Part shown: piece by piece, positions 15,501 to 64,000 of the stretch
How the letters are laid out: each line of letters begins with the position of its first letter
Numbering within the stretch: position 1 is the stretch's first letter
NCBI RefSeq assembly: GCF_026151205.1
Contig: NC_087072.1
Location: forward strand, 13,368,169-13,432,168
DNA length: 64,000 bases
Source: Bolinopsis microptera
Lineage: Eukaryota; Ctenophora; Tentaculata; Lobata; Bolinopsidae
Reading direction: 5' to 3'
Program-made: the position numbers and the translations under genes
Notes under the pieces: generated by a model
Told to the model about the DNA's origin: nothing
What the model saw: only the letters and a program-made list of their open reading frames with translations
Databases searched by the model: none

Positions 15501-18500
15501 TCGCGAAGATGACTAGGGGGGGGGGGGGGGGGGGGGGGGGTCCACGTTAAAAAAAGTTAAAAAAAGTTAAACTAATTAATGTTAAATTTCAAAATTCAGG
15601 CTTAGAAAGTTTAACTTTTTTAACATAAATTCAAATTTGGGTTGACATTGCAATGGAGTGAATATTCTAGACTAGTTTACTTTTAGGTCATGCGTTGGTA
15701 TTTTTGTTCATTAGTCATTACATGTAGGAATATAGGAATGCCCATGACAAGAGTAAAACAGTCATATAACATAGGTACAACCGATAAATAATTGATACAT
15801 TTGATCATTACAATAATAAATTATAATTCATAGAAATATAAACAGCTGATTCATAAATAATTTTAAAAAAACAACAGATTCCATTCACAGTGTCAACACT
15901 GAAAATAGGGCTATGATAATCTATATCATTAAATCTAGTGATACTAATCGTAATGAATTAATAACTGAATAAAATTCTAATGATGTTTCAATGTAAAAGT
16001 TATCGCTCAAACAATTTGTCAATATATTATATTACAAAATTAAAAAACAGTGTCAATGAAGTAAAAATTTTACAGGTGTTACTGTAACAACGTAAATAAA
16101 AGAACTTGAGGTTCTAATTTGAAGTTACTTATATCATTTAACCTGAATATAAAAGTCTATCATTAAAATAATTTTCACTATAGTGCAGCCGAGTCCTTAT
16201 CGTCGTTCATATATTTTAGAACTTCACTTGTAATACGATTAACATCACACGGTTGAGGAATCTTCATTATATCACGACATACATCATTATTCAGTAATGA
16301 AAATAGATGTTCCTCAATAATCTCTTCCTCGGACATTCCTGATGTCCCAAGACTAGGGAGGCTACCTCTTATGGCCAAACAACTGGCTAAAAAAAGCACA
16401 AATCCTTCAGTACTGATCCTGAGATCGCTGAACTGTCACTTGAACGCAAGCAGCTGATGATTGCGAATATGCAGAACAAATTCCCGACCAACAGGAAGCA
16501 TGTCAAGACCAACATCAACCAGCTGAGACGTAAGATTACAAAGAGACTCAGAGATATCAACAACCGCAGTGCTGACACACTCGTCGAAGAGGTAAACAAC
16601 ACAGACGACGCCCGGAGATACTTTGGAGCATCTAAGATACTCGCCAAAGGATATGTTAGACCAGCTCTAACCGTCCACAACCCTGCTGGGAATATCGCAG
16701 GTAATGATGAGGAGAAAGCGAGGATTATTAAGGAGTACTTTGAAGCTGAGTTCAACGACGCTGATGAGCCTACCCTTCCTGCCTTCCTTGACCCCCCATC
16801 TAGCCTTAACAGTCCCATCACCGTTGCAGAGATAGAGAGAGCCATCAGTAAACTCAATTCTGGTAAAGCAGTGGGTATTGATAAAGTTCCTGGCGAGGTC
16901 ATGAAAGCCCTGAACAACCCCCTCCTTCATGAAGAGCTGGCTAATGTGTTCAACGAGTCTTTCGAGAAAAACATTCACATTGAAGCAATAGGAGCAGGCA
17001 TCCTCACACCACTGGCTAAGCCTGGTAAAACTCGTGGCCCAGTTAAGTCGATACGACCATTGCAATTGACCCTGCTGAATGTTTCTAGAAAGATCCTGTC
17101 ACTGATAGTGCTAAACAGAATAGAGAGAGCTGTGGACAACTTCACCGGACCGTTCCAAGCTGCCTACAAAGCTGGCAGGAGCTGTGCCGACCTAGTTTGG
17201 GCACAGAGCATGCTCATATCTGTAGTAATGAAGAAGGAGTTTGAATGGAACAAAGTGAGTATCGACATGTCAGCTGCCTTCAATACCATCCGCAGAGGTA
17301 CAACAATCAGACTACTAGAAGCTGCAGGATGCTCCAGAGACGACCTGAGGCTTGTACAATACCTCATGGCTAACACCACTCTAGTAGTCAGAGTGTGTTC
17401 TACTGACTCAGAGATGTTCTCTTTCAACATAGGAGCCTCCCAAGGAGACAGCACAGCTGGTAAATTGTTTACCCTCAATCTAGCTGGAGCTGTAGTGCAC
17501 ATAAGAGCAGTCCTCCCCTCAAGACCCAACCCTCCGATAGCCGATAACCACATGCCTCTTGAGTCCGGCTATTCAGACGATGTAGAGGAGATAGGTGAAG
17601 ATATGGAGGAGTTACAGGATATCTTTCAGATCTCCAAGAATATTCTCAGTGAATGGAGTCTCTTTGTCAATGACACAAAGACAAAGTTTACCAGAGTGTA
17701 TTTAGAAGAAGTTGGTGCCTGTGACGAGTGGGATAATGAACTAAGAGGAAAAGAGGAGTGGAGAAACGAGACGCTTCTTGGTACTAAGCTTGGATCAGAG
17801 CAGGATGTTACTAATAAAATAAATAAAGCTAACTCTGCCTTCTGGTCATTTGACAAGCTGTGGTGCCAGGGATCAGAGAGGAGTCAGATAACTGAGAAGA
17901 GAAAGATCAAACTCTACGACTCACTAGTAGTATCAGTGCTCCTGTACAACTGCTACTGCTGGGCCGTACCTCAGCATGTTCTAGAGTCTGTAGATGTTCT
18001 TCAGAGGAAGCACCTCAAGCGCATCCTACACACATATTGGCCTAGCTCAATATCTAACAAGGCCCTCTACGCTCGTACCCAGACCAGGCCCCTTTCCGAG
18101 AGAGTGGAAAAGGCACGGTGGACAATGCTAGGTCATGTTCTACGCAGTGACAACGACACACCTGCCTACCAGTCTCTGTTATTTGCTACACTAGGATGTC
18201 AAACACTAAAGGGACGAGTGGGTAGACACAGGACTAATTTGTATGATATTATTGTGAAAAGGACCTATTTAAGAGACAAATTTATTTAAAAAATGAAGAT
18301 GATTTTACCAACTTAGTGAACTTAGCAAGAGATAGAGTAGGATGGAGGAGTTTATTTACTTTGAGACATATTGAACGAATGAGTCTTCGTAAGCGTAAAT
18401 AGGCCAGCACTTTGCTGAGCCTCTTTAGGTGCTCTTTTGTTTATAGATGTTATTATATTATATAACTGGCTAAATGGCTCTTTAGATTATGAGAGCATCT

Positions 18501-50900: not shown

Positions 50901-52699
50901 ACCTGGTGAAATAAAGTAACTGAACTGTAAGTTTAAGAAAAGACGGAAGGAATAAAGGAGAGAGGAAATAATGTTATGTGAACATCATCAGCAGATGACT
51001 TGGCACACCGGTTTCGGGGTTTAATACCTGTACCGGTTTAATGTGCCAAGACCCCCTAGCAATCACTCGTCAGTGATCACCTGTTCACGTTAAATGTGAT
51101 GTCAAGGATGTCGCTGACATCAAGTATACTGTATTTGTACAGAATACTAGGTCGGTCTTTCAGAAGCTTTCTGAATTTACTCTTCAGGAGTCTGTCATTA
51201 TAACATCTTGAAAGAAGTGTCCTATAAAGGGTGTTGGTAGAACACAGAAAAGAATCAAGGTCAGAGATAATGGAAGAGTAACGAAGGACCTGACCGTAAA
51301 AAACATTATAACCAACAGAAGAGGAAATATTACTGTTAGGAAAGGTGTACATGACCACAGGAAAGTTGAAGTCATCAAGTTTGTTGTAAAGCTTGGTGGC
51401 GACGTGTCCGGAGTTATTCATCGAGATGTTGATGTCGAGATAGTTTACGGACTTATTGTCGTCACCACTCCTCTCCATAAGCAGGTCAGGTGGATAAATG
51501 GACCTGATTAGGTTAGAGAAATGCAAATAGTTCATGGTGTTGAGGTCGTCGACATATCTGCAGTTTCTTGAGAGGAGCTTAGCGAGACCGAACTTCTTTT
51601 CTTTGATTAGGCGTGTCATGTAGTTGAATTCACACTTCCCTAGCGAAAGATCAGCGAACTGGCTACTAGAATTCCCTCCCATGGGAATGCCTTTCGTTTG
51701 TCTTAAAATCTGATCCCCAAAACAAACAAAAGTGTTAAACAGAATAAATGTAATAGCTGTTTTGAGTTTATCAGCAGAAAAACATAAGTACACTCCTAAT
51801 ATCACTTGCGGAGCTAACCTAATTACCAACGCTACAAAGAGAGCGAATAGGAAGAAAAAGTGAGCCATTTTAGTGGCTCACTCCATAATGTTGCATTAAT
51901 AGTACAAAACCATCAATTTAGCCACTTACCACCGGCCGATTTTTATAAAATTTGCTTATTGGCTTCGTCAGAGTTTTGTCGGCACTATACCGAAAAAACC
52001 AGTACCGTAACTATTACCGTTTTTTTTGTATAACCGTTCGGAAATTACACACAGACAGACAGACACACAGACAGACACACAGACACACAGACACACACAC
52101 ATTTTGGTGTTATTAAGTTGATGCCTCTCTGGGCATCTCAAAATATACTGTATATAAAAATATTCTCATTCATTTATGGGATAATTACCTGATAATCCAA
52201 GATGCAACTCCTTCAAAATAATTCTGCAAAGCCACTTCTGATGTAATGGGGACATGTTTTTAGTTAAATTGTTGATGAGATCATTGACTTTCTCATTGTG
52301 CTTAACACATCCCATTTGAATACTATCCAACAATGTATTTATTTCTTTTATGGTGAACTCTTTGTTGCCATGGCAGCGATTGCGAAGGATATGGAAGAGT
52401 GTGTCTGGTAGATCTTTATTACCTTTGACAGATTTGAATTTGAGGAGTCTCTGAGCTTCAATGCTAGTTTTAGCAACACAAAGGCTATCGATGTATTTTC
52501 TGGCAAGAGCATTCTCTTTTAAACCATATGATGATCTCGCTTTGTCAAATTTAGGTAAAATTAACCTTAAAGTCTCATAAACCTCACAATCTGGTAATTG
52601 TGACACTTCATGGTAGTAATCTGATATTCTCAGCAGTTTGTCTTTCTTAGTAGTAGTAGTGACAACACTCTCCAGAGTTTGACATAGCCTCGAGAACAT
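47919..52699 (-). CDS. LIG4: DNA ligase 4
   Basis: ATP-dependent ligase that seals breaks in non-homologous end joining with XRCC4. Exons on the minus strand in phase: 52189-52699, 50194-50296, 49945-50080, 47919-49775. The N-terminal DNA-binding domain starts MFSRLCQTLESV. Motif I is ETKYDGERMQ with the adenylated Lys, motif III ILDGEIIVFD, motif IV EGLVLKIP and motif V GGWYKIKTDYL. BRCT1 follows (FCVLSG...), then the XRCC4-binding linker around GSFDEFGDSFSVPVTPGEL, and the start of BRCT2 (ARLYGARL...HHIVGDDDS). A minisatellite then inserts RDVTIP repeats inside BRCT2, and the usual Trp-containing helix after it is not visible. The start codon is the ATG aligned with the family N-terminus; in-frame codons upstream reach 52741. 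A Penelope-like insertion lies in the first intron. Confidence 0.95.
48006..48092. repeat. CRE/E-box minisatellite, in frame inside LIG4 BRCT2
   Basis: Four copies of an 18-bp unit with TGACGTCA and CACGTG, related to the arrays at 45.7 and 46.3 kb but with TGGTATGG in place of TGGTGTGG. Translated as RDVTIP repeats on the minus strand within the last LIG4 exon. Confidence 0.9.
50392..52110 (-). mobile_element. Penelope-like retroelement copy in a LIG4 intron
   Basis: The minus-strand RT fragment at 51077-51868 is bracketed by two sequences that look like element ends: the ACAGACAGAC-type run at 52050-52105 on the 5' side and a CCCGGCCTTCGGCCGGG hairpin at 50399-50415 on the 3' side. Between the ORF and the hairpin are a C run and a structured segment near 50995-51055 (CTTGGCACACCGGTTTCGGG and a partial complement). 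Boundaries are inferred, not proven by a target duplication. Confidence 0.45.
51077..51868 (-). pseudogene. Reverse transcriptase fragment, Penelope-like or related
   Basis: RT palm blocks QTKGIPMGGNSSSQFADLSL and CRYVDDLNTMN (the YVDD active site) are followed by VNYLDINISMN, TKLYNKLDDFNFPVVMYTFP and GQVLRYSSIIS. This block order is that of a widespread animal RT family usually grouped with Penelope-like elements. The fingers (N-terminal part) are missing, and no GIY-YIG endonuclease is seen. The catalytic aspartates are intact. Family placement is tentative. Confidence 0.65.
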
Positions 52700-59737: not shown

Positions 59738-61358
59738 ATGACTGAGAGTAACGAAAAAGTAAAGACTATGAAGCAAAACGGGAATTCCAGCAAAGCAGCC
59801 TTACGAAACCTGCCTCACGCAAAACAGGTTAATTAAAGCTGAATTATCAGGATTGAATAATAAAGATTGTTCTGTTTACAGGTTGAAAATCTAAAGACAC
59901 AACTTTCAATTTACTGATAGTAAAGACTGTTAGCTATGAAACAAATATTGAAATTAATTCCATGACAAAATAGTCAATATTAACGTCATCTAACCACAGC
60001 TTGAGCGTCTAGCATCATATTCAACATGTGGGTTTGAAGGCTGTTCATGCCAAGCTTGGAAGTCAGGATCTTCTGCTCCTTCAAAAGATTGTTCATCTTG
60101 CAGCCATGCAATTCAGGTATGGTATAATATAAACGAGTTTAAGTTAGGGCAAATTTATTGATTTCCCTCTGTAAATGACCAATTTTTTTATTTGTTTACT
60201 TAGATTTGTAGTTTATATCTGATAGTTGTTCATCTCTTAGTACCATCTGGACAAGATATTATCGATGGCTACAAGTCAGCGGGAGAAGATGTTAGACATG
60301 ACAGTTGATATTGAGCTACTCTACAGTTTTTATCACAGGTATCAAATCATTTAGCATTACCTAAATTTTTTGAAATTTCAAAAATCATCAAGAAGATACT
60401 AAAAATGTCACATCTCGCTCATATTCCCATATCCCACAATTACAATAGGTTACAGTTTACTAGGTTATCAGATTACAATAGGTTACCAGGTTACAATTTA
60501 CCAGGTTACAATAGGTTTACACCTTTCAGGGAGACTGAACCTGTCCAGAAGAATGTTTACTCTGTTCTAGTGAAACTGTTGAGGCAGTCGTTAAGCCAAG
60601 GGTCAGAACCTAACATAGAAACTCCACTTGGTAATTTTATCATATTTACCTGAAATTATGCATGATAACTGATAAAACATAATATAAGATTAGATTCATT
60701 CGGAAATTTTAAGTTCTACAATCTACATTATTTAATAACAAGGTCTATGTTGATCTGACAACCTAATTAATTGGACTTTGTTAATATCTACCATAAAATT
60801 GTTACTAGAAAAGTTGACTTTATTTTATTCTGTTGCAGGTAAGCCACCATTTGAAAGTACGACCATAGCAAAAGCAATTACAGATTTTATCGCTGCCAAC
60901 GATTCCCACTACTCGGTAAGGCTTTTACAATTTAACTGTTTTCATATAAAATAACTTATATATATATTGTATTTTTAAACCTTAATCGTGATTTATACTT
61001 AATGTTTACCGACATAGCTGCAGTATGATTTATACCATAATATAAACTAGTTAAATCTAATAACTAATTCATTGCACTAAAACTTCTCTCTTGTTATGAT
61101 AAATACTGTACATAAATACCGTACATTATATTATATTATATTAACATACCATATAAGTTATAACTAAAACATATACTAAAATACTAAAATGCTAAAATCT
61201 CAATCTCTCCTTGATCAGACAGAAGAGCAACAAAAGTTGACAGAGTTTGGAAAGTACCTGTTATACTTCACTAACCAGTTCTCACTGCCTACCCCTGCTA
61301 ACTACAGTGACAGGAACCCTGAATCAGACCAAGCTGCTTACAAAACTATTTATCTGAG
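59738..61358 (+). CDS. GCN5/PCAF-type histone acetyltransferase, N-terminal part
   Basis: Six exons in phase: 59738-59827, 60000-60116, 60241-60338, 60530-60630, 60839-60915, 61219-61358; the gene continues beyond the window or past 63.6 kb. Exon 2 encodes LERLASYSTCGFEGCSCQAW then KDCSSCSHAIQ, the Cys-rich start of the PCAF homology domain. The next exons give YHLDKILSMATSQREKM, EPVQKNVYSVLVKLLRQSL, and KPPFESTTIAKAITDFI, matching KAT2A/KAT2B order. The last exon corresponds to the E-R-Q-x-x-x-E-L-A-K-x-F segment (EEQQKLTEFGKYLLYFTNQF). The acetyltransferase and bromodomain are not in the window. The start at 59738 follows an overlapping ATG at 59731 that runs into a stop after four codons, a possible short upstream ORF. 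KAT2 enzymes acetylate histone H3 in SAGA-type complexes. Confidence 0.85.
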
Positions 61359-61748
61359 GTTTAAACTTTAACAACATTACTCTTTCTCTTTCACTTTCAC
61401 TTTCTCACTGCCTACCCCTGCTAACTACAGTGACAGGAACCCTGAATCAGACCAAGCTGCTTACAAAACTATTTATCTGAGGTTTAAACTTTAACAACAT
61501 TACTCTTTCACTTTCTCTTTCTCTTTCTCACTGCCTACCCCTGCTAACTGCAGTGACAGGAACCCTGAATCAGACCAAGCTGCTTACAAAACTATTTATC
61601 TGAGGTTTAAACTTTAACAACATTACTCTTTCACTTTCTCTTTCACTTTCTCTTTCTCACTGCCTACCCCTGCTAACTACAGTGACAGGAACCCTGAATC
61701 AGACCAAGCTGCTTACAAAACTATTTATCTGAGGTTTAAACTTTAACA
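61281..61748 (+). repeat. Fourfold tandem copy of the 3' half of a KAT2 exon with its donor
   Basis: Copies begin at about 61281 (the exon itself), 61404, 61527 and 61656, with spacing 123, 123 and 129 bp, nearly identical. Each includes the last 78 exon bases, the GAG|GTTTAAAC splice donor and a TTTCACTTTCTCTTT pyrimidine spacer of varying length. Only the first is needed for the reading frame. The pyrimidine-rich spacers precede CTCACTGCC without a clear AG acceptor. Confidence 0.9.
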
Positions 61749-61998
61749 ACATATATCACTTTCATATCACTTTTTACATCTCGTATATGTTTGTCTTTTA
61801 TCTCTCTCGCTAATTGATGAGATAAGCCGTTTTTACGACGCACTGGCTACAGCATACAGCTTGTAACTACTGACGAACAGACGAACAGACGAACTCACGG
61901 GCTCAGTGGTACCGACACAGAGCGGTCCTTTTCCTAAAAGCCACAAAAACCTCCCTACTAAAGTAAGTCACTACATTTCGATTTGCAATTTGACTGAA

Positions 61999-63564
61999 AT
62001 GGAGACCCAGACTGAGCTAAGCGGTCGCACATATTGTTTCACCACGGCAACTTGCATGGACCTGATTGGTAAACTAGTAGGATACCAGCTCGATCGGGAG
62101 CTGAAATCTTTCGGAATGGACGACGAAACTCTTTGTAATCTAACCGTCCTTAAAAAGAAGGAACTACTCAAATTGAACCTTCAAGATAATGTGTGTTGCC
62201 AATCACCGAGCGAGACGACTAACAAACTCACTAAACTAACACAACTGTTTTCGAGGTCCGCGAACGATACGATGACAGATCTAAAGAAGAGCTTAGAAGA
62301 CGCCAAGGATCTCGTCTCCTCCCTACAGAAGCTTGATCCCGCCACCCACCCCCCACCCACCCTCCCTGAAACGGCAGTGACGGAAACTTCTCACGTTCAA
62401 GATATAGAGGAGCAGCCCTTCATCGCACTGGATTCCGGTAGCTTTCTCGAGAGGTTTGAGTTTGAAAAGCTTAATTCTGAACTGACTTTTGAGTGCAGCT
62501 TTGCGAATAGGAAAGTAACTTACTTCGGCGATTTACCTTACAAGTACACTGGGGGTTATCACAAGAAGAAGGCCTTGCCAAAGGATTCATATCTCACTGA
62601 AATTCTACTTGCTGTGGCGGATATGTGCAAATCAAATGATATTGATTACTCCGAGTTCAATAGCTTCATGGTGACTAAGTATGATACCCCCGACGATTAC
62701 ATACCCCCTCACTCGGATGATGAACAGTGTATAGCTAGAGATAGTAATATTCTCACAGTTTCTTTCGGGGGAGCTCGAGAAGTTGTTTTCCGTCGCCGCC
62801 CACCTGGCGAATACCGCAAACAGAGCTTAACTGTGAAGCACGGCGAGTGCTACGTCATGTCACGTAAATCTCAGGATAGTTTTGACCATGCCGTCCCCAA
62901 GGTTGATCCTGCTAATTTTGACAGGCCGAGGATTAGTATAACACTTCGAAAATTGACCCCTAACATCCCACAAATCCCCGCCAATGAACCTCAGCGACCC
63001 AAACGGGTGTTAGTATTATCAGACAGTAAAAACTCTTCTTTCGACTGTTCCAAGTTTAAAGCGCCCGTAGTTGCCTTCCGCGAAAATCTCTTCCTGCTGC
63101 GCGATCTTGAGGAACACAAAGAATCTATCAAATCCTCGGACATAGTTCTTATTAGTGCTGGGGTAAACGACATGAGGAAAAATGGTGTGAACGCCCAAAT
63201 TTTGCATGATCATGTCAGAAACTTTGTCGTACAGTATCCGAAAACCCAGTTTCTATTTGATTCCGTTACAAACGTGACCATGAATGCAGACCCGTACAAT
63301 GAACTGAACCCGAACATTAACTTCTTCAATCAGCTTATGTTTAAATGCTCCCTTCGTCATGCCAACATACATCTGTTTGATAACCTATCGTTCGGATGGG
63401 GTCATCTAGCACGTGACGGCCTACACTTTAACTACAGCGGACAGAAAGTCACGTCTGATACCTGGGTCCATGTTGTATTAGTCTGCCTTGGATTTAGACG
63501 TGGCCCTTTACCACTACGTTATGACTTTGTGAAATTGCATGAAGAGTCTCAGTCCTGGAAATGA
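61999..63564 (+). CDS. Intronless AlkB-like dioxygenase plus SGNH-hydrolase-like protein
   Basis: Single open frame of 521 codons from the ATG at 61999; in-frame codons extend upstream to a GTG at 61906. Residues about 1-140 are helical and charged. The middle is a 2-oxoglutarate/Fe(II) oxygenase of AlkB type: YIPPHSDDEQ (H-x-D iron ligands), GGAREVVFRR, then the distal His in SFDHAVPK and the AlkB RPRISITLR (R-x5-R). The C-terminal third has SGNH-type blocks: VLVLSDSKN (block I, Ser), ISAGVNDMRKNG (block III, Asn) and LARDGLHFNYSGQ (block V, D-x-x-H). AlkB proteins repair alkylated bases or demethylate RNA. SGNH domains occur in some retroelement ORF1 proteins, so this may be mobile-element derived. 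It lies in the same orientation within or just after the KAT2 gene. Confidence 0.8.
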   Translation: METQTELSGRTYCFTTATCMDLIGKLVGYQLDRELKSFGMDDETLCNLTVLKKKELLKLNLQDNVCCQSPSETTNKLTKLTQLFSRSANDTMTDLKKSLEDAKDLVSSLQKLDPATHPPPTLPETAVTETSHVQDIEEQPFIALDSGSFLERFEFEKLNSELTFECSFANRKVTYFGDLPYKYTGGYHKKKALPKDSYLTEILLAVADMCKSNDIDYSEFNSFMVTKYDTPDDYIPPHSDDEQCIARDSNILTVSFGGAREVVFRRRPPGEYRKQSLTVKHGECYVMSRKSQDSFDHAVPKVDPANFDRPRISITLRKLTPNIPQIPANEPQRPKRVLVLSDSKNSSFDCSKFKAPVVAFRENLFLLRDLEEHKESIKSSDIVLISAGVNDMRKNGVNAQILHDHVRNFVVQYPKTQFLFDSVTNVTMNADPYNELNPNINFFNQLMFKCSLRHANIHLFDNLSFGWGHLARDGLHFNYSGQKVTSDTWVHVVLVCLGFRRGPLPLRYDFVKLHEESQSWK

Positions 63565-64000
63565 ACGATAAATCCATTTAACAGAATAGTAAAGTTTCAA
63601 TCTAGAGATCAAAGTATAAATCGTATGTGACCAAATATTTAAGTCTTTAGAAATGCACTGAACACAAGAAACAAAATCAATTTCCAACAAAATAATACTT
63701 ACTACAAACTTTATGCTCGGCCTTGTAACTTGATGCAAGAGTAGCGAATTAAATGTCTAATCTTCTTTTTAGAGAGATAACGCCGATGATAAGGCGACTT
63801 ACATTAAAAAGTAATTAAGTACACGTAATTTGCCACACGCGATTCCGGTGCCATGTACTCGGCACTGAAATACATTGTACACACTCTGCACTATGCAGAT
63901 ACACTGACAGACACACTGACTAGTGACTTACAACAACACAAGCAAGCTGTTGCCAAGTGCAACATAAAATGTCTGAATCTCTACGGTTGCTAGGTAACCA
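63565..64000. other. No feature recognised
   Basis: Unique-looking AT-rich sequence. A possible acceptor near 63898 precedes an open stretch (DTLTDTLTSDLQQHKQAVAK), which I could not match to KAT2 or any family. Confidence 0.3.

Follow-up and report, generated by a model that had tools for sequence, protein, structure and literature searches.

Does the intronless open reading frame (ORF) within KAT2 of Bolinopsis microptera that joins an AlkB-like dioxygenase to an SGNH-like domain belong to a mobile element, and if so, what might the dioxygenase do there? The frame occupies 61999–63564 (+) of the window, the 64,000-nucleotide stretch of contig NC_087072.1 that was analysed here.

The ORF and its retrotransposon

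The frame is uninterrupted, with an ATG at 61999, a TGA at 63562–63564 and zero internal stops, and encodes 521 aa comprising an N-terminal region, an AlkB domain and an SGNH domain. The AlkB-type 2OG-Fe(II) dioxygenase domain (residues 181–317; 62539–62949, +) exceeded the curated cut-off of PF13532 (2OG-FeII_Oxy_2; E 2.8e-15) and contains H238-x-D240, H297 and R311-x5-R317. With the single protein as the query, its best relative among solved structures was ALKBH3 (E 2.7e-10). The SGNH-type hydrolase domain (approximately residues 335–483; 63001–63447, +) was recognised from Pfam, alignment, a family profile and motif residues, with Ser343, Asn390 and D473-x-x-H476 all present. The PF13472 (Lipase_GDSL_2) match lay under the Pfam cut-off (E 1.5e-4), the window protein alone reached SGNH proteins of solved structure at E 0.023 only, and no NCBIfam model matched the whole protein at E ≤ 0.01. 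Remote homology was assessed by profile searches against the sequences of solved structures, in which a 13-row profile of related SGNH domains reached a PAF-acetylhydrolase-like structure (1.8e-12) and 4c1b, the ORF1 esterase of ZfL2-1 (2.4e-8); a narrower 5-row profile matched a GDSL protein at 2.8e-4, with 4c1b absent from its matches. The Ser, Gly, Asn and His blocks were invariant in all 13 aligned rows, and the Asp of D-x-x-H was missing from two (L023 and L028). An initial reading made from the sequence alone (hereafter, the sequence-only reading) had proposed the fusion and its intact catalytic signatures, to be abandoned if profile searches failed to support either domain; the fusion and the signatures were confirmed, and both domains are backed by profiles.

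The frame is part of a two-ORF element. Copy-to-copy alignment breaks at or near 61763 (equivalent to position 1932 of L009), which marks a common 5′ boundary, so that 61763–61998 (+) forms the 5′ part of the element ahead of ORF1; an apparent partial duplicate of the element's 5′ end lies at approximately 61753–61762. Downstream, the copy alignment places the beginning of the ORF1–ORF2 spacer at 63565–64000 (+), followed by ORF2, which starts 252 bases beyond the window end (C1:13432420), and the element ends near C1:13436714. ORF2 encodes 1220 aa in all four copies compared, 0.7 kb downstream of ORF1, and that of the window element matched RVT_1 (4.8e-36) and Exo_endo_phos (6.6e-13) in Pfam; its best solved reverse transcriptase (RT) relatives were LINE-1 ORF2p. 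Neither an RNase H domain, which would be foreign to the CR1/L2 group, nor an integrase was detected by Pfam at E ≤ 0.01 in eight ORF2s. Three full-length copies aligned over ~6.78 kb (~6,780 bases) and a truncated fourth over ~6.17 kb (~6,170 bases), all with 99.7–99.9% nucleotide identity; the C13 copy encodes an ORF1 protein identical to that of the window, and a second C1 copy encodes one that differs by three residues. The adjoining RT frame and the multiple copies, both of which the sequence-only reading had suggested looking for, were thus found.

The genome searched comprised 264.65 Mb in 232 contigs, of which C1–C13 account for 258.07 Mb (97.5%). ORF1 gave at least 85 matching stretches (83 of 740 candidates scored), some of them pieces of one copy. 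Further ORF2 copies with 97–99% protein identity began late, at residues 204, 260, 388 and 445, as expected from 5′ truncation, and the element therefore has the dispersed and 5′-truncated copies of a LINE. The last ~100 bases, when folded alone, formed a stem-loop in elements of the window family as well as in those of the 55% sister family, which terminates in AAAC repeats. Target-site duplications were sought in eight copies and none was clear, the shared words being at most 6–8 bases long. We consider it nearly certain that the window ORF is a LINE ORF1 carrying AlkB and SGNH domains.

The insertion site differs in part from that described in the sequence-only reading, which had placed the ORF among intron sequence of KAT2 on the same strand. 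Host KAT2 (PCAF_N) exons do lie upstream, outside the element, on this strand (59994–61368, +): four window ORFs matched PCAF_N positions 17–50, 103–138, 135–167 and 162–211, each just short of the curated cut-off (18.9–23.4 versus 24 bits), and a downstream stretch of this strand, interrupted by one stop, matched positions 189–251. However, the site itself is not a plain intron. A 123-bp tandem array flanks the insertion on its 5′ side with 3.8 units (61279–61752, +) and resumes beyond the element, where it extends over 10.3 units or more (L009 8716–10000, where the fetched sequence stops), giving ~14 repeats or more inside KAT2. Each unit carries the 3′ portion of the KAT2 exon matching PCAF_N up to position 211, and the LINE was inserted within this array of exon-derived units. 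Elsewhere in the window, apparent RT fragments of other retroelements were seen by eye at 16457–18289 (+) and 51077–51868 (−).

Occurrence in other LINEs, in Helitrons and in the literature

A PF13532 search of the genome yielded at least 151 matches (150 of 587 candidates scored), and the surrounding sequence was inspected for a selected subset of those listed. Altogether, AlkB followed by SGNH was found in 16 LINE ORF1s besides that of the window (L013, L027, L028, L023 and L035; L017, L021, L024 and L037; L020, L022, L038, L039, L040 and L042; and L019), and a Helitron family also contained both domains, which answers the suggestion of the sequence-only reading to search for the fusion genome-wide. 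The 16 do not represent 16 independent families, since L039 hardly differs from L040 and the ORF2s of L017 and L021 belong to a single family. No Pfam SGNH row was obtained for L028, L019 and L035 at the limits used; the SGNH call in these three, and in L021 and L040, is based on motifs, alignment and trees. The 11 ORF2s compared fell into four RT lineages in a tree of rows from this genome only.

A second sample started from the RT: 10 loci were picked by open-frame size from 150 listed RT matches (6,513 candidates), and the sequence upstream was inspected. Four loci (L038, L039, L040 and L042) had an AlkB + SGNH ORF1, and two had a damaged AlkB, by eye an RT-like stretch interrupting the AlkB of a LINE ORF1 with the frame still open in L041 and an internal deletion running from AlkB into SGNH in L044. 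At L043, L045, L046 and L047, no ORF1 was recognisable by eye within the upstream stretch inspected.

Within the window lineage, 34 of 38 ORF2 rows (four late starts were left out) were paired with 42 of the 85 ORF1 rows. An ORF1 match holding the AlkB core lay within 3 kb upstream of 20 of the 29 near-full-length ORF2 copies; two had an ORF1 match without the AlkB core and seven had no ORF1 among the matches listed. Three of these seven were inspected, one being truncated in the spacer and two lacking an ORF1-like frame over ~3 kb; C1:20004135, also among the seven, had ORF1 pieces at least 4.7 kb upstream. Five ORF2 rows starting at residue 83 had no AlkB-bearing ORF1 among the matches listed, yet inspection of one revealed an AlkB–SGNH ORF1 there after all (L035).

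The Helitron copies (L018, L025 and L026) carry SGNH and then AlkB, the reverse of the LINE order. The C10 Helitron (L025 + L051) has a single 3,388-aa open frame with the order SGNH, AlkB, DUF6570, Helitron_like_N and PIF1, and the matches to Helitron_like_N (3.1e-22) and PIF1 (3.3e-22) provide the HUH Rep-type and PIF1 helicase parts of a Helitron. Separately, a 986-aa ORF in L034 (1285–4242, −) combines an SGNH domain 47% identical to that of the window with a stretch containing a GFAGSGKT motif; AlkB was not seen in this ORF, and a relative matched within a 1019-aa frame at C8:8269545.

AlkB domains also occur in plant RNA viruses such as Betaflexiviridae, which are selfish RNA replicons; there, the domain sits in the polyprotein of an RNA virus, whereas that of the window sits in a retrotransposon. 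IMG/VR gave zero matches when scanned with ORF1 and with ORF2, and phage records gave four distant AlkB matches (26–29% identity). In its general plan, the window element resembles the esterase-type (type IV) ORF1 CR1/L2 LINEs described in passages of PMC3905857 and PMC4120745, such as ZfL2-1, with two ORFs, an SGNH domain in ORF1 and an ORF2 with APE endonuclease and RT. The sequence-only reading had noted an SGNH-type esterase in ORF1 of some non-LTR elements, of which ZfL2-1 is an example. Unlike ORF1s of the ZfL2-1 type, that of the window has an AlkB dioxygenase ahead of the SGNH domain, and the term AlkB has 0 occurrences in the main texts of PMC3905857 and PMC4120745. PHD fingers are common in CR1/L2-type ORF1s, according to a passage of PMC4120745. 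Mobile elements that are unrelated to one another have SGNH/GDSL domains time and again, as in a platyfish SGNH gene mobilised by a Helitron and in GDSL ORFs of bdelloid LTR elements (portions of PMC4021074 and PMC5408684, respectively); in contrast to the elements described here, these are without AlkB, a term that was counted zero times in those portions.

The sequence-only reading had also regarded a demethylase in a mobile-element protein as new. For LINEs and Helitrons, no AlkB was reported among the titles and abstract starts of the literature matches listed (Repbase and most subscription journals being uncovered), with AlkB passages also checked in PMC11294593, PMC4982230 and PMC10161547. 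For retroelements in general, the domain is not wholly new, because an orchid (Phalaenopsis) Ty3/Gypsy element is described in passages of PMC9289625 as likewise encoding an AlkB-family dioxygenase, one with m6A activity in vitro; this is the only transposon-borne AlkB found among the literature matches listed. The orchid case, as far as those passages go, is an LTR element whose additional ORF encodes an ALKBH5-like m6A eraser (PMC9289625), whereas the AlkBs here are ALKBH2/3-like, joined to SGNH and carried by LINEs and Helitrons. The window element, with an APE endonuclease in ORF2 and no integrase match at E ≤ 0.01, does not fit an integrase-bearing LTR element of the orchid Gypsy type.

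Conservation, descent and exchange of the domains

The Fe and 2OG residues of AlkB were intact in the 17 LINE and three Helitron ORFs analysed. They were constant in an alignment of 14 element and three presumed host AlkB domains, in which the L021 row was incomplete, its residues being complete in the full ORF; the same residues were present in L035, L037, L038, L039, L040 and L042. Across ten element AlkBs the Fe/2OG-binding residues were invariant, although nine of these are only 26–61% identical to that of the window. The otherwise constant Arg of S-x-G-x-x-R was replaced by Cys in L038, L039, L040 and L042. Between the window and L013, pN and pS were 0.233 and 0.858 for AlkB, close to the values for ORF2 (0.257 and 0.849, respectively); exact omega values cannot be given between LINE families because AlkB dS is mostly saturated, including in this pair. 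In unsaturated Helitron pairs, omega was 0.17–0.20 for AlkB (dS 0.15–0.27) and 0.21–0.36 for SGNH. The element AlkBs are under purifying selection.

Against solved structures, a profile of ten element AlkBs matched ALKBH3 (4.6e-27) and ALKBH2 (4.4e-25), followed by ALKBH8 (2.3e-9), neither ALKBH5 nor FTO being named in any of the 35 rows at E ≤ 0.01. In an AlkB tree of sequences from this genome only, 16 LINE and three Helitron AlkBs formed a clade (99/98) relative to L019 and three presumed host AlkB ORFs (L029–L031), whose host origin is inferred from the lack of SGNH in the ORFs inspected and from their position outside the element clade. L019 was not part of the 99/98 clade and had a long branch, to which the usual long-branch warning applies, and the best tree separated all elements from the host with weak support (86/75). 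The Helitron AlkBs nested beside L020, L022 and L038–L042 (87/88); a clade of LINEs (without L019) separate from the Helitrons was not rejected (p-AU 0.12). In the AlkB tree L024 lay close to the window group (80/86), but in the SGNH tree it joined L017, L021 and L037 (96/97), a conflict that weakly suggests domain exchange.

ORF1 exchange was clearer among elements related to L017. At least 47 ORF2 rows were related to L017, of which 27 were used (identity of ≥94% and a start no later than residue 64) together with 30 of 71 ORF1 rows. Twelve of the 27 had a type-A ORF1 (~611 aa, usually 183 bases away), eight had a type-B ORF1 (~646 aa, 300–301 bases away in five) and seven had no ORF1 within 2.5 kb, three of the latter having a type-B ORF1 3–5 kb upstream (C4:5505937, C1:9584997 and C7:15920502). 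By its coordinates, an ORF2 additional to the 27 but within the same limits (C9:8978147) had a type-A ORF1 183 bases upstream. Both ORF1 types (the L017 and L021 families) contain AlkB and SGNH; at full length they are ~59% identical, with dS of 1.5–2 for the N-terminal region and for AlkB and saturated dS for SGNH. Nevertheless, the 20 paired ORF2s were 98–100% identical to that of L017, and the ORF2s of type-A and type-B elements were only dS 0.047 apart. Near-identical ORF2s combined with diverged ORF1s indicate that the ORF1s were swapped recently.

Possible roles of the AlkB domain

ALKBH2 and ALKBH3 remove m1A and m3C, both of which block reverse transcriptases; ALKBH3 prefers single strands, and both LINEs and Helitrons go through single-stranded nucleic acid. 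The window element is an autonomous, recently mobile LINE that would be copied by target-primed reverse transcription, with ORF1p probably packaging the element RNA and its SGNH part perhaps binding or hydrolysing lipids by analogy with ZfL2-1. The AlkB part may be a working ALKBH2/3-like demethylase that would clear Watson–Crick-face methyls (m1A and m3C) off the RNA of the element itself or off its first-strand cDNA; left in place, these methyls would stop its reverse transcriptase. Given that ALKBH3 and ALKBH2 were the best profile matches, that m1A and m3C block RT and that LINE and Helitron intermediates are single-stranded, ALKBH2/3-type removal of methyls from transposition intermediates seems to us about evenly poised between right and wrong, its activity, substrate and benefit all being predicted from sequence; resemblance to ALKBH2/3 leaves the substrate unfixed. 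Moreover, demethylation need not benefit an element, since the m6A eraser ALKBH5 suppresses L1 in mammals (passages of PMC7873242). The intact Fe/2OG residues, the purifying selection and the presence of AlkB in several LINE lineages and in Helitrons favour a working enzyme; the damaged AlkBs of L041 and L044 and the Cys replacement in L038, L039, L040 and L042 speak against it. The wider picture, in which module exchange has distributed a mobile AlkB branch, joined to SGNH, across several LINE lineages and also to Helitrons within this one animal genome, where the enzyme demethylates single-stranded transposition intermediates, is put forward tentatively, as somewhat less probable than not.

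A different role for the same enzyme would be to erase host silencing marks (m6A or m1A on RNA, 6mA on DNA), that is, anti-silencing rather than repair. PHD-type fingers are often chromatin readers, and the weak matches to such fingers in the window ORF2 and in both ORF1 and ORF2 of L020, below Pfam's cut-offs, would fit this role, as would the transposon precedent of the orchid Gypsy AlkB, which removes m6A in vitro (passages of PMC9289625). The grouping of the element AlkB with ALKBH2/3 and not with the m6A erasers ALKBH5 and FTO, however, makes us regard erasure of silencing marks as rather unlikely. Catalysis could also be unimportant, with AlkB acting as a module of ORF1p that binds single-stranded nucleic acid; known RNA-binding domains are absent from esterase-type ORF1ps (a passage of PMC3905857), so AlkB could supply one, but the invariance of the Fe/2OG-binding residues in AlkBs as diverged as these renders a purely binding role improbable. 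Finally, a host gene, or the retrocopy of a host gene, suggested by an intronless ORF inside a host gene and named in the sequence-only reading as a single-copy gene that would overturn it, is contradicted by near-identical two-ORF copies with an adjoining RT ORF at several places, by truncated copies and by the position of the three presumed host AlkB ORFs outside the element clade, and can be dismissed with hardly any doubt.

If methyl removal from transposition intermediates or erasure of silencing marks is correct, these elements would bring along an enzyme of their own for cleaning the template or erasing marks, an apparent eraser that selection has kept in two unrelated element classes, which bears on whether transposition is limited by methylation that blocks RT or imposes silencing. 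Elements with the same ORF2 and different AlkB–SGNH ORF1s constitute natural test material for this methylation question. In addition, a census of host AlkB genes in genomes of this kind could be confused by element AlkBs, with their near-identical copies.
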